A DNA stretch of 64,000 nt. Origin: Aquimonas sp. Its GTDB lineage: Bacteria > Pseudomonadota > Gammaproteobacteria > Xanthomonadales > Xanthomonadaceae. Each line of letters opens with the position of its first letter. Position 1 is the first letter of the stretch. The DNA lies in the NCBI GenBank assembly GCA_022241605.1, contig JAKOMQ010000009.1, positions 1 to 64,000 on the forward strand, read 5' to 3'. Shown here piece by piece: positions 47,863-52,520 of this stretch. The position numbers and the translations under genes were made by a program. The notes below the pieces were generated by a model. It was not told where the DNA came from, made no database searches, and saw only the letters and a program-made list of their open reading frames with translations.

Positions 47863-48252
47863 TCAGGCGGCCTTTTTGGGCGCAGCCTTGGCCACCGGGC
47901 GGGCAACGGCCTCGCTGGCGACGTCGAAGTTGGTCTTGGCCAGACCGGCCAGCGCTTCGGAGGTCTTGAGGTTCTGGCCGACAAGCTCCTGGCTGACGGC
48001 GATCAGGTGCTCGGAAGCATCCTTCACGAAGGTCATGGTCTTGGGCAGCAGCGTCTTGGCGGTCTCGAGGTCGCGCACTTCGGCGGCTTCGCTGGCGAAG
48101 GCCGAAACGGCGCTCAGGCGGCCTTCGAGGGCCTTGGCCTGAAGGGCGGCAATCGCTTCGAAGTGCTCCACCGCGATCGCGTTCATGCGCAGGGCGGATT
48201 CGGTCAGCTGCTTGGTGTACTGGCTGAACTGGGCGTTGATCTGATCGAACAT
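47863..48252 (-). CDS. Phasin family protein
   Basis: A 129-residue helical protein of the phasin family, which coats polyhydroxyalkanoate granules. It starts MFDQINAQFSQYTKQLTESA and goes on ALEGRLSAVSAFASEAAEVR, TLLPKTMTFVKDASEHLIAV and SQELVGQNLKTSEALAGLAK, an uninterrupted amphipathic helix pattern, with an Ala/Lys-rich tail (VAKAAPKKAA). Length is typical. No polymerase or depolymerase gene for the polymer is near. It is monocistronic between its own terminator and a 166-base upstream region. Confidence 0.88.
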   Translation of the reverse strand: MFDQINAQFSQYTKQLTESALRMNAIAVEHFEAIAALQAKALEGRLSAVSAFASEAAEVRDLETAKTLLPKTMTFVKDASEHLIAVSQELVGQNLKTSEALAGLAKTNFDVASEAVARPVAKAAPKKAA

Positions 48253-48303
48253 GGCGTTCTCCTGAACTGTGCGGCGGGGTGTGGGAAGAGACTAGCCCAG
48301 ACT

Positions 48304-48317
48304 TTGCTGCATCGCAA
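48304..48317. promoter_or_regulatory. Possible regulator site upstream of the phasin gene
   Basis: TTGCTGCATCGCAA is a short dyad (TTGC...GCAA), 52 bases before the phasin start. Granule regulators of the PhaR type bind TGC-rich dyads in front of phasin genes in other proteobacteria. No phaR gene is in the window, so this remains a suggestion. Confidence 0.3.
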
Positions 48318-48418
48318 CATAAACGGGCAAAGAAGCCGCCTCTCGTTTAGTCAAGATTCAGTGAAATGCTTGACACAATCTGTTAACCCTGAGTTCCCAT
48401 ACGCTTGGGTAGGGAAGA

Positions 48419-48775
48419 TCAGGGGCCGCGATAGCGAGCGCCAGACGTGCAGGTTTCGTGCACGACCACCATGGAAAGCTCGGCCAAAGCGGGCTTCAAC
48501 TGTTCCCAGATCCACACTGCCAAGCGTTCGCTGGTCGGGTTTTCAAGGCCCGGCACATCATTCAGATAGTGATGATCGAGCCGGTCGTAGATCGGCTGGA
48601 ACGCCGCCTTGATGTCGGCGAAATCCATCAGCCAGCCCATCTCGGCGTCGAGTTCGCCTTCGACGTGGATCTCCACCCGAAAACTGTGCCCATGCACGCG
48701 AGCGCACTTGTGGCCAGGCGGGACCTTGGGCAAGCGATGTGCGGCCTCCAGGGTGAAGACCTTGAAGATTTCCAT
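48419..48775 (-). CDS. queD: 6-carboxytetrahydropterin synthase (queuosine pathway)
   Basis: A 118-residue enzyme that converts 7,8-dihydroneopterin triphosphate to 6-carboxy-tetrahydropterin, an early step of queuosine synthesis. Zinc ligands are H13 in EAAHRL and H28/H30 in VHGHSF; the catalytic cysteine is C24 in [11 protein letters not shown]. Later blocks [28 protein letters not shown] and [16 protein letters not shown] carry the catalytic His/Asp/Glu set. The start at 48775 gives the standard length; the frame is open to 48820. No other que genes are adjacent. Confidence 0.92.
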
Positions 48776-48843
48776 GGTGGGCTCCGGAAACGACGTGGGC
48801 CCCGCTCGCGCAGGGCCCACGGGTGGCGTATTGGTCGCTCAGT

Positions 48844-49701
48844 TTACGCCGCGAACAGCGCCTTCATCTTCTTCATCGCCGCCGATTCGATCTGGCGGAT
48901 GCGTTCGGCGGAAACGCCGTACTCGTCGGCGAGTTCCTGCAGGGTGATCTTGCCGTCACCCAGCCAGCGCCGCTTGACGATGTCCCGCGACCGCGCGTCA
49001 AGGCTGGCAAGGCCATCGCGGAGAATCTCAAGCCGGTTCTCTTCCTCGTCCTCTGCCGCATAGACCAGCGAAGGATCACCGCCCTGCTGGACGAGGTACG
49101 CAGCCGGCGCAGGACGGGCGTCATCATCGGAGTCCGCCGGCGCATCAAAGCCGATGTCCTGACCCTGCAGGCGCGCCTCCATCTCCAGCACCTCGGACTC
49201 CGGCACGTTGAGGTCGCGGGCAATCGTCTTGACCTCTTCATGGTTCATCCAGCCCAGCCGGCGCTTGCTTTTGCGCAGGTTGAAGAACAGCTTGCGCTGG
49301 GCCTTGGTAGTGGCGACCTTGACGATGCGCCAGTTGCGCAGGATGAACTCATGCATCTCGGCGCGAATCCAGTGCACGGCAAAGCTGACCAGTCGGACGC
49401 CCTGATCGGGATCGAAGCGCTTGACCGCCTTCATCAGGCCAATATTGCCTTCCTGGATCAGGTCCGCCAGCTGCAGGCCATAGCCCTTGTAGCCGCGGGC
49501 CACGTGCACGACGAAGCGCAGGTGGGACAGCACAAGATGGCGTGCCGCTTCGAGGTCCTGCTCGGACTGGTAGCGCCGCGCCAGGGTTTGTTCATCCTCC
49601 ACGGCCAGAACCGGGATCCGGTTGACCGAGCCGATATAGGCGTCCAGCGTCCCGATGGCGCTGAGAGCGGGAAAATTGTGAGCCACCAGAGGCTGTGACA
49701 T
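48844..49701 (-). CDS. rpoH: RNA polymerase heat-shock sigma factor (sigma-32)
   Basis: A 285-residue group 3 sigma factor. Region 2 has [40 protein letters not shown] and [20 protein letters not shown]; between regions 2 and 3 is the RpoH-specific stretch [20 protein letters not shown], the Q-R-K-L-F-F-N-L-R signature used by DnaK/DnaJ control. Region 4 ends [23 protein letters not shown] 49701 is chosen because GGAGAAG precedes it; ATG 49713 has no ribosome site. A CIRCE-like operator lies 22-48 bases upstream, implying control by the HrcA repressor in addition to the usual sigma-32 circuitry. Confidence 0.96.
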
Positions 49702-49722
49702 GGGCTTCTCCATCAAGCGATT

Positions 49723-49749
49723 TTAGCAGTCTAGCCCTGAGAGTGCTAA
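49723..49749. promoter_or_regulatory. CIRCE-type HrcA operator in front of rpoH
   Basis: TTAGCAGTC-N9-GAGTGCTAA differs from the CIRCE consensus (TTAGCACTC-N9-GAGTGCTAA) at one of 18 positions, with exact spacing. It sits 22 bases before the rpoH start codon, where bound HrcA would block transcription. The hrcA gene is not in the window. Confidence 0.82.
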
Positions 49750-49827
49750 ACCGCGGGTGAAGTTCCTGAGGGGCCTTTGGACGCGCCGACTGTTCAAGGT
49801 GGGGCAAGCGCCACTGAAATCAAGCCT

Positions 49828-49914
49828 GAGAGCCTGTGAAAAAACCCTCCGCCGGCTGCGGCCGCCGCTGGGCGCCCTCGCTACGGCATCTGGGTTTATT
49901 CACACGCTCTGAGC
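49828..49914. repeat. Dispersed palindrome family, short form
   Basis: GAGAGCCTGTGAAAAAACCC ... GGGTTTATTCACACGCTCTG AGC. Left and right ends are inverse complements with few mismatches. The ung gene reads into its right end and stops on its terminal TGA. Confidence 0.88.
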
Positions 49915-50622
49915 GGGCTCAAGGGCTGAGCGAGGCGGCAGCCGCCAATCCACCGGCTGCTCGCCGCGGCCCTGCAGGTACCGGTTGGCGGCCGAAAAAT
50001 GGCCACAGCCCAGAAACCCGCGGTGCGCGGACAGAGGCGACGGATGTGGAGCGCGCAGCACGGCGTGACGAACGCGGTCGATGAGCTTGCCCTTGGCCTG
50101 CGCGTAGCTGCCCCAGAGCATGAACACCAGCCCCTCGCGCTCGTGGCCCAGGCACTCGATCACTGCGTCGGTGAAGGCCTCCCAGCCGCGCCCCTGATGC
50201 GAGCCGGCCTGGCCCGACTCCACCGTCAGCACGGCGTTCAGCAGCAGTACGCCCCGTCGAGCCCAAGGCAGCAGGCAGCCGTGATCTGCCGGGGCGATGC
50301 CCAGGTCGCTCTGCAGCTCCTTGAAGATGTTGCCCAGCGAAGGCGGGATGGCCACGCCGGGCGGCACCGAGAAGCTGAGCCCATGGGCCTGACCCGGCCC
50401 GTGATAGGGATCCTGGCCCAGGATCACCACCTTGACGGCGTCGAAGGGCGTGCTGTCGAGAGCGCTGAAGATTTGCCCGGCAGGCGGATGGATACGGGCG
50501 CCGGCGGCGCGGCGCTCCAGGAGGAAGCCCCTCAGGGCCTGCATCTGCGGCGACAGCAGGGAATCGGACAGGCGCGATTTCCAGCTCGGGTGCAGGCGCA
50601 CCCGCTCCAGCTCGACGCTCAA
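49900..50622 (-). CDS. ung: Uracil-DNA glycosylase
   Basis: A 240-residue family 1 enzyme that removes uracil from DNA. Motif A is VVILGQDPYHGPGQAHGL with catalytic Asp71; LLLNAVLTVESGQAGSHQGR is the uracil-recognition region; HPSPLSAHRGFLGCGHFS is motif B. The start is uncertain: TTG 50622 overlaps the stop of the upstream response regulator and gives the usual N-terminal length; GTG 50601 is an alternative. The last residues QSV and the TGA come from the right end of the palindrome repeat at 49828-49914. Coupling to a response-regulator gene is unusual for ung. Confidence 0.94.
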   Translation of the reverse strand: MSVELERVRLHPSWKSRLSDSLLSPQMQALRGFLLERRAAGARIHPPAGQIFSALDSTPFDAVKVVILGQDPYHGPGQAHGLSFSVPPGVAIPPSLGNIFKELQSDLGIAPADHGCLLPWARRGVLLLNAVLTVESGQAGSHQGRGWEAFTDAVIECLGHEREGLVFMLWGSYAQAKGKLIDRVRHAVLRAPHPSPLSAHRGFLGCGHFSAANRYLQGRGEQPVDWRLPPRSALEPAQSV

Positions 50623-51467
50623 GCCTCCTGCACCTTCTGTCGCATCAGCCGGCCCACCCGCAGCTGGAACAGCAGCTTTGTGACCAGCAGGCGCTCCTCG
50701 ATGGGCTTTTCCACCAGGTCATTGGCGCCGGCGCGCAGCAGGGCCGACTGGTTGGCGGGATTGTCGTCGCCCGTCATCACCAGGATCGGCAGCTGGGCCT
50801 TGCTGTAGGCGAAACGACCCCGCACATGCTCCAGCAGGTCATGGCCGGTCATGCCGCCCTTGAGATACACATCGGTCAGCACCAGGTCCACGCCCGGAAC
50901 ATTGCCCGCATCCACATGGCCCTGCAGCTGGTCCAGGCCGTCCTCGACGCTGACCACGTGACTGACCCTCAAGCCGTGCTTTTCCAGCATGCGACGGGTG
51001 GCGACCGCCACGACCTTGCTGTCCTCGACATACAGCACATCGCCGCCGGTTTCGTCCTCTGGCCGCACGTAGCCACGAATGAAGGCACCCAACGCGGCAA
51101 AGCCCAGCGACTTGTCGAAGTAATCGGTGACATCGTCGCTGAAACTGCGCTGCACCAGCCGCTCATTGACGTCGCCAGACACCACGATGATCGGGATGAA
51201 GGCCTGTGGCGCATGCTCGCGCACGTAGCGGGCCAGCTGCAGGCCGTCCATGTCTGGCAGGCGCAAGGCCGTGGTGACCAGATCGATAACGCCGTTCTGC
51301 AGGGCAGCCTGAGCGTCGGCACCGGTCTCGCAGGACACCACTTCGACGCCCGGCAGCTCGGCGCGCAACACCTGCTCGATCAGGCGCCGCACCACCTTGG
51401 ATCCGTCCACCACCATCACCCGCGGGGTCTCGGACGTGATGTGGCGGGTGATGCTGGCTCCGCTCAT
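50619..51467 (-). CDS. Response regulator with two receiver domains, the first lacking the phospho-acceptor
   Basis: A 282-residue protein made of two receiver (REC) domains and nothing else. REC1 (about 15-135) starts VMVVDGSKVVRRLIEQVL; at the phospho-acceptor position the usual L-D-L is replaced by Ala67 in TTALRLPDMDGL, so it cannot be phosphorylated in the normal way. REC2 (about 143-270) is complete: acidic pair in LYVEDSKV, Asp199 in LVLTDVYLKGGMTG, T-G in LVMTGDD and the conserved lysine in DLVEKPIEE. No output domain is attached; it may act as a phosphate-dependent adaptor for another protein such as a cyclase or kinase. GGAGG precedes ATG. No histidine kinase gene is nearby. Confidence 0.88.
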   Translation of the reverse strand: MSGASITRHITSETPRVMVVDGSKVVRRLIEQVLRAELPGVEVVSCETGADAQAALQNGVIDLVTTALRLPDMDGLQLARYVREHAPQAFIPIIVVSGDVNERLVQRSFSDDVTDYFDKSLGFAALGAFIRGYVRPEDETGGDVLYVEDSKVVAVATRRMLEKHGLRVSHVVSVEDGLDQLQGHVDAGNVPGVDLVLTDVYLKGGMTGHDLLEHVRGRFAYSKAQLPILVMTGDDNPANQSALLRAGANDLVEKPIEERLLVTKLLFQLRVGRLMRQKVQEA

Positions 51468-51524
51468 GCTGGCCTCCGCAGGCGAGGAACCGGAGCCACC
51501 GGCCAGGTGTGGACGCTTCCACTG

Positions 51525-52520
51525 TCAGTGCTCATCGACCCTTCTCCCCGATTCGACCTGCCGCAGGTGATGGCCGACTGCAAGGTATGCGCCCAGCCAC
51601 CCCAGGCCGGCGGCGCCGGCCAGCACCGCGGAACCGTCGAGGATACTGAATCCGTGCAGGCGGAACCCACTGCCATAGCTTTCAGCCAGCTCGGCGGCCG
51701 GCACCGAGAGCCCTGCGACCAGGGCAGCCAGCACCGCCAGCGCCAGCATTCCGGCGCCTAACCCGTACCAGACCCCGAGATACAGGAACGGCCGCCTCAC
51801 AAAACCCGCGGTGCCGCCGAGCAGGTGGATGACCGCGATCTCCTCGGCGCGGCCCTGCACGTCCAGACGCACGGTATTGCCCACCACCAGCAGTGCGCCC
51901 AGCACCAGCAGGACGGTCAGCGCCTGCGCAAAGCGTTGACCCAGCGCCAGCCAGCCATCGAGCCGCTGGCGCCAGAGCGCGTCGTGCTGCACCAGTTCAA
52001 CTCCCGGCAGCGTCTGCAGCGCAGCGACCAGCGCGGCGGGATCAGCTCCGACCTCCGGCACCACTTCCAGCACCGCAGGAATAGGATTGCTCTCCAGCAG
52101 GGCGAGGGCTTCGGCGAATCCTGCCAGGGCACGGAACTCGTCGAGACCCTGCTCCGGGCTGCGTACGCCCACCTCGGCGACGCCGGAAAGATCGCGTGCC
52201 GCCTGCAGGCTGACCTCAATCGCCTCGGGCTCAAGCTCGACCGCCAGAAACACGCCGATCTCACGTGACTGTTCGACCGCGCCAGACAGCTTCTGCAGGT
52301 TGCCGATGAGCAAGCCAAGGGCCAACGGCAGCGCCAGCGCGATCGCCATCACGCCGACCGTCAGCCCGCTCGCGAACGGCCGCGTCCACAGCCGTCCGAG
52401 GCTGGACACCAGACTGAAGAGGTGCAGCTGCAGCCAGTTCTGAAGGCGCCCACCCAGACGCGCTGAACCCGGCGCCGGACGCGGGCTGGCGGCGGGGCGA
52501 CGCCGACGATTGCGGCTCAT
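51525..52520 (-). CDS. ftsX: Cell division ABC transporter, permease subunit
   Basis: A 331-residue FtsX. A basic N-terminal tail of about 45 residues precedes the first membrane helix (TVGVMAIALALPLALGLLIG). The extracytoplasmic loop (about 75-200) includes EIGVFLAVELEPEAIEVSLQ, and then three helices with LTVLLVLGALLVVGNTVRLD and VQGRAEEIAVIHLLGGTAGF, a signature of FtsX. With FtsE it transmits ATP hydrolysis at the divisome to cell-wall hydrolases. The start overlaps the ftsE stop by four bases (ATGA). It is the last gene of the gspF-ftsE-ftsX run. Confidence 0.93.
   Translation of the reverse strand: MSRNRRRRPAASPRPAPGSARLGGRLQNWLQLHLFSLVSSLGRLWTRPFASGLTVGVMAIALALPLALGLLIGNLQKLSGAVEQSREIGVFLAVELEPEAIEVSLQAARDLSGVAEVGVRSPEQGLDEFRALAGFAEALALLESNPIPAVLEVVPEVGADPAALVAALQTLPGVELVQHDALWRQRLDGWLALGQRFAQALTVLLVLGALLVVGNTVRLDVQGRAEEIAVIHLLGGTAGFVRRPFLYLGVWYGLGAGMLALAVLAALVAGLSVPAAELAESYGSGFRLHGFSILDGSAVLAGAAGLGWLGAYLAVGHHLRQVESGRRVDEH

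Follow-up and report, generated by a model that had tools for sequence, protein, structure and literature searches.

A predicted HrcA operator superimposed on the predicted promoter region of rpoH in many HrcA-bearing Gammaproteobacteria

Can the HrcA repressor control the synthesis of sigma-32 itself? The regulation of sigma-32 is mostly known from E. coli, and an E. coli control genome gave no HrcA match. The question is raised by a locus of the window (the whole 64-kb stretch of DNA analysed here) in which a CIRCE-like inverted repeat adjoins rpoH. The initial annotation had proposed that HrcA represses the synthesis of sigma-32 through this repeat. From the comparisons given below, we consider it quite probable that HrcA controls rpoH through this repeat, which would be a genuine operator lying over the promoter region of the gene.

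The CIRCE repeat and the genome that carries it

The repeat TTAGCAGTC-N9-GAGTGCTAA, whose spacer is TAGCCCTGA (thus TTAGCAGTC-TAGCCCTGA-GAGTGCTAA), agrees with the CIRCE pattern, an inverted repeat of the form TTAGCACTC-N9-GAGTGCTAA, at 17 of 18 positions and has the usual 9-base spacer. It is the sole match with at most three mismatches in the 64 kb, and 100 dinucleotide shuffles of the window gave none, which bears out the match before rpoH that had been annotated. The repeat occupies the place expected of CIRCE in the promoter or 5' leader of a heat-shock gene, as it adjoins rpoH and overlaps promoter-like elements (Table 1). Its placement was thus correctly described; its distance from the gene was given as 22 bases and is actually 21 from the ATG at 49701, or 9 from a second in-frame ATG at 49713. 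In many members of the window's family, an ATG is found about 10 bases 3' of CIRCE. The gene itself is clearly an rpoH (TIGR02392, 411.5 bits for a cut-off of 323.1).

Table 1. Features of the rpoH locus in the window
Feature	Position	Strand	Remarks
rpoH (sigma-32)	48844..49701	-	285 aa from ATG 49701; alternative in-frame ATG 49713; profile match
GGAG, probable Shine-Dalgarno sequence for ATG 49701	49708..49711	-	read by eye
Possible sigma-70 -10, TAAAAT	49720..49725	-	extended TG at 49727-49728; 18-base spacer
CIRCE operator (predicted)	49723..49749	-	rpoH sense TTAGCACTC-TCAGGGCTA-GACTGCTAA; motif scan and conservation in relatives
Putative sigma-E -10, CTCTCA	49738..49743	-	spans the junction of the left half-site and the CIRCE spacer, three bases on each side
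-35-like TTAGCA	49744-49749	-	start of the left half-site
Sigma-E-type -35, GGAACTT	49760..49766	-	10 bases upstream of CIRCE

The surroundings of rpoH (window 47863-52520, minus strand) comprise a phasin-like gene, a gene of the 6-pyruvoyl tetrahydropterin synthase family, rpoH, a uracil-DNA glycosylase gene, a response regulator gene with two receiver matches and ftsX. Thus, ung and the response regulator gene separate ftsX from rpoH.

The assembly to which the window belongs (75 contigs, 2.98 Mb in total, completeness 75%) encodes one HrcA (PF01628, 214.7 bits; TIGR00331, 318.3 bits for a cut-off of 197.2), whose absence would have refuted the proposal according to the initial annotation. 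A scan of this 75% complete genome with at most three mismatches found two CIRCE sites only, one before rpoH and the other before groES. Furthermore, no CIRCE was found at this threshold in the 3.7 kb that surround hrcA, in which genes like grpE and dnaK were recognized by eye 3' of hrcA. The genome also carries rpoE (TIGR02939, 331.5 bits for a cut-off of 236.15). The product of the gene that follows it matches PF03872 (RseA_N) but remains under the NCBIfam cut-off for RseA (52.4 against 263 bits).

Distribution of the rpoH site and of hrcA

Sixty genomes of the order were searched, 59 of them from relatives of the window's genome; 36 of the sixty belong to its family (itself included) and 24 to the rest of its order. 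HrcA was detected in 47 of them and rpoH in 59, whose DNA 5' of rpoH was compared. One genome (G010, 72% complete, hrcA present), in which rpoH was not detected, was left out of the counts, as was a second, weaker rpoH-like gene of G052. Just 5' of rpoH, CIRCE with at most three mismatches occurs in 38 of the 46 genomes that have hrcA against none of the 13 that lack it (n = 59); with at most five mismatches, these counts become 43/46 and 0/13. Thus, five of the eight hrcA-bearing genomes without a site at the stricter threshold carry one with four or five mismatches. As for the three others, inspection by eye revealed a copy with an 8-base spacer in G049, a decayed copy in G015 and none in G052. 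The site is therefore conserved before rpoH, in step with hrcA, as would be expected if HrcA represses sigma-32 synthesis in the way initially proposed. In the same way, groES, matched in 58 of the 60 genomes, is preceded by CIRCE (at most five mismatches) in 45 of 45 genomes with hrcA and in none of the 13 without it. G006 and G031, both of the window's family, have neither hrcA nor an rpoH site at up to five mismatches, and G031 retains a CIRCE remnant with a 10-base spacer before rpoH.

A sample of named genomes, made of the best 80 of at least 591 rpoH relatives and including a few loci with little upstream DNA, extends this observation. CIRCE (at most three mismatches, within 400 bases 5' of rpoH) was found in 43 of these best 80; the carriers include Dyella, Luteimonas, Pandoraea, Rugamonas, Trinickia, Polynucleobacter, Nitrosomonas and Methylocaldum. 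No CIRCE was found at the rpoH loci of Vibrio, Haemophilus, Shewanella, Aeromonas and enterobacteria among the same 80. Fifty of the 80 genomes were searched for HrcA and, by a hand tally, the rpoH site is present in 23 of 27 genomes with hrcA versus 2 of 23 without it. These two exceptions (L013 and L048) are metagenome-assembled genomes of 1.7 and 1.8 Mb whose completeness is not given. Xanthomonas pisi has a decayed copy with five mismatches. In Pseudoalteromonas luteoviolacea (L041), which counts among the 27 genomes with hrcA, a perfect CIRCE lies 60 bases 5' of the rpoH match; its HrcA match is weak and distant (E 1.2e-11) and is possibly a divergent or acquired HrcA.

The breadth of the arrangement was surveyed with a directional composite, GGAAC-N10-13-TTRGCANTC-N9-GANTGCTAA, which joins CIRCE to the sigma-E-type element described in the next section. 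In an even sample of the class (369 genomes), 101 carry this composite, and the backwards control gave none among the matches listed for the same genomes. HrcA was detected in 268 of the 369 genomes and in 98 of the 101 that have the composite; the three others (G114, G285 and G444) are 62, 72 and 75% complete. The strict composite is missing in 170 of the 268 hrcA-bearing genomes; the genomes without the composite also number 268, and hrcA was detected in 170 of these. Thirty of the 101 loci were fetched, and every one of these 30 composites precedes rpoH and shares its strand. In a sample of the phylum, 10 of 398 genomes (window's included) carry the composite, and all 10 are labelled as belonging to the window's own class or closer.

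Promoter elements overlapping the operator

The promoters described here are predicted from sequence with the consensus sequences of sigma-E and sigma-70 promoters. In the aligned rpoH sites, GGAACTT, the -35 element of sigma-E promoters, stands 9 or 10 bases before CIRCE. The left half-site closes, 15-16 bases further on, with CTC or GTC, which together with the following NNA resembles a sigma-E -10 element. In the window, this candidate promoter reads GGAACTT-N16-CTCTCA, in which the distance between -35 and -10 is suitable and CTCTCA is not the best form of the consensus.

The groES CIRCE sites of the same genomes provide an internal control for these elements. GGAACTT (at most one mismatch, gap of 8-11 bases) adjoins 37 of 43 rpoH sites versus none of 45 groES sites (Fisher p 7e-19, relatedness ignored). 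Likewise, an A at spacer position 3 of CIRCE is found in 37 of 43 rpoH sites versus 3 of 45 groES sites (p 7e-15, relatedness ignored), and also in 93 of the 101 composites of the class survey. At the named loci, the overlap between the sigma-E-type promoter and CIRCE is common but not universal, since GGAACTT (at most one mismatch) is present at that spacing in 25 of the 43 rpoH sites and missing in 18. A Bordetella-labelled metagenome-assembled genome (L052) has CIRCE without an adjoining GGAACTT.

A C-to-G change in the left half-site, which turns CTC into GTC, is seen in the window's family in 18 of 32 rpoH sites versus 9 of 33 groES sites (Fisher p 0.024). It was considered that a sigma-E -10 (GTC) alone could account for this change; this was rejected because the change is seen at groES too and the right half also changes. 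Altered HrcA tolerance is thus just as likely a cause as a sigma-E -10. More generally, half-sites with C and G swapped (TTAGCAGTC and GACTGCTAA) are common in this family at the CIRCE of both genes, which suggests a shift in what its HrcA tolerates.

There may be a second, sigma-70-like promoter whose extended -10 falls in the right half-site, and the evidence about it is mixed. A consensus scan of positions 49600-50000 revealed exactly one sigma-70-type site, TTAGCA-18-TAAAAT with TG (9/12; shuffles mean 0.0, sd 0.2), and the TAA of its candidate -10 is part of CIRCE itself. A T at position +3 after CIRCE counts in favour of this promoter because a -10 formed from the right half-site would end in this T. 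This base is present in 41 of 43 rpoH sites versus 20 of 45 groES sites (p 1e-7), in 42 of the 43 named rpoH sites and in all 30 fetched composites. However, two observations go against a sigma-70 promoter at rpoH: an A at +2 is rarer there (24/43 versus 40/45 at groES), and the -35-like TTGGCA or CTGGCA, usual at groES (40/45), is rare (5/43). If the sigma-70-like -10 were used in the window (49699-49725), transcription would start near ATG 49713 and the rpoH mRNA would be nearly leaderless.

The groES sites of the relatives (L173-L230) are strand-asymmetric: on the sense strand, the left half starts with TTGGCA or CTGGCA in 40 of 45, and 2 of 45 show the mirror change in the right half. This asymmetry fits a -35-like hexamer or a tolerance of G-U pairs in the mRNA. 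Such changes (TTGGCACTC on the sense strand) were also considered as evidence for an RNA hairpin and set aside as non-discriminating, since a left half-site altered in this way also comes closer to a sigma-70 -35.

Proposed regulation, alternatives and precedents

What the sequences show directly is the operator, the fact that it goes together with hrcA and, at a fixed spacing, elements of the sigma-E type. From these, we infer how rpoH would be controlled. Once on CIRCE, HrcA would mask the sigma-E -10, carried by the left half-site within GGAACTT-N16-CTCTCA, together with any sigma-70 hexamers, among them the less certain TTAGCA-N18-TAAAAT whose extended -10 derives from the right half-site. 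Occlusion is thus the simplest mechanism, and HrcA would most likely repress rpoH by blocking the access of RNA polymerase to its promoter. In other bacteria, the activity of HrcA depends on GroEL. Titration of GroEL would therefore be expected to raise rpoH along with groESL here: heat or misfolded protein would draw off GroEL, HrcA would become less active and both would be derepressed, while envelope stress would provide an additional drive through sigma-E. Together, the co-occurrence with hrcA and the promoter overlap suggest that the HrcA/CIRCE and sigma-32 heat-shock circuits, which are usually drawn separate, are probably wired together in the HrcA-bearing relatives.

The main alternative, which is possible but which we regard as rather unlikely, is that HrcA does bind but that rpoH is dominated by sigma-E or by post-transcriptional control (translation, turnover of RpoH); CIRCE, which may still be a real operator, would then only fine-tune expression. 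In E. coli, the control of RpoH takes place largely after transcription. Furthermore, rpoH can apparently run without HrcA, as the 13 relatives of the order that lack both hrcA and CIRCE have GGAACTT (7) or GAACTT (1 more) within 300 bases of rpoH in 8 cases, neither being present in the other 5. In the same way, GAACTT lies about 146-185 bases 5' of rpoH in four named enterobacteria without hrcA (L023, L036, L045 and L053); it was not found 5' of rpoH in another one (L050), nor within 400 bases at the Vibrio loci. However, the strong co-occurrence with hrcA speaks for more than fine-tuning, as does the mean pairwise identity in the family (32 sites), which is far higher in the half-sites (0.88) than in the DNA further upstream (0.29), a contrast inflated by the choice of sites on their likeness to CIRCE.

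It is much less probable that the repeat acts as a 5' hairpin of the rpoH mRNA, involved in stability or thermosensing, instead of as a DNA operator. A perfect CIRCE could fold, the window copy sits just before the start codon, and CIRCE hairpins are said to influence mRNA stability in other bacteria. Yet an RNA element would not need hrcA, and all 13 hrcA-lacking genomes are devoid of the site at up to five mismatches. This association with hrcA and the C.C mismatch in the stem of the window copy make the role of a hairpin less likely. One-sided changes are also frequent among relatives, and if transcription began at the sigma-E-type promoter, the left arm would be missing from the transcript. 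Lastly, that CIRCE is a chance palindrome or the relic of a lost regulation is scarcely credible: the window copy has one mismatch to the consensus and some relatives hold decayed copies, but the absence of matches in the shuffles and the conservation of the site, at the same place in most hrcA-bearing genomes of the order and across the class, refute a chance origin.

The preferred reading, an HrcA operator that controls rpoH, departs from the best known HrcA/CIRCE systems, those of groESL and hrcA-grpE-dnaK-dnaJ, by its target. The operator and the repressor are the same, and groES of the window's genome has its own CIRCE. However, these operons encode chaperones, whereas the target proposed here is a regulator of transcription, and the hrcA locus of this genome is itself without a CIRCE of at most three mismatches.

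As for earlier reports, a 2003 paper by Permina and Gelfand, which reportedly deals with the heat-shock regulons of beta-, gamma- and epsilon-proteobacteria, may list rpoH sites, and such sites may likewise have been reported in a study of Geobacter RpoH or in a review of heat-shock regulation. In a partial search of the literature, neither the sigma-E/CIRCE composite nor its class-wide pattern was found described. A CIRCE before rpoH has already been predicted: in Geobacter sulfurreducens, it was placed 5' of rpoH, at -51 from the translation start, in Table 8 of a 2004 study (PMC545781). This prediction, computational like ours, concerns the same operator and the same target gene. However, it bears on one species, and the accessible part of that study describes no promoter overlap, whereas many genomes of one class, a sigma-E-type overlay and a co-occurrence with hrcA are involved here. 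The sigma-E half of the arrangement also has precedents, since a sigma-E-type promoter drives rpoH at E. coli rpoH P3 and at fam, the rpoH of the betaproteobacterium Bordetella bronchiseptica, whose promoter is transcribed in vitro by SigE according to the part of the study consulted (PMC3490749). This supports in principle the sigma-E half of our proposal. The difference is that P3 belongs to a host without an HrcA match, whereas the sigma-E -10 predicted here lies inside an HrcA operator.

It may be, and we hold this with as much doubt as belief, that rpoH is governed in a large part of the Gammaproteobacteria (broadly defined) by a compact switch that joins a single HrcA operator to a sigma-E promoter and probably to a sigma-70 promoter. 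Through GroEL and HrcA, the folding load of the cytoplasm would then gate both the housekeeping and the envelope-stress synthesis of sigma-32. In bacteria without hrcA, such as the sampled enterobacteria, this gate would be gone and the sigma-E-type promoter would often stay. If HrcA does gate rpoH in the relatives that have hrcA, the two branches of the heat-shock response, that of HrcA and that of sigma-32, would form a hierarchy there, in which GroEL would feed back through transcription on the regulon as a whole.
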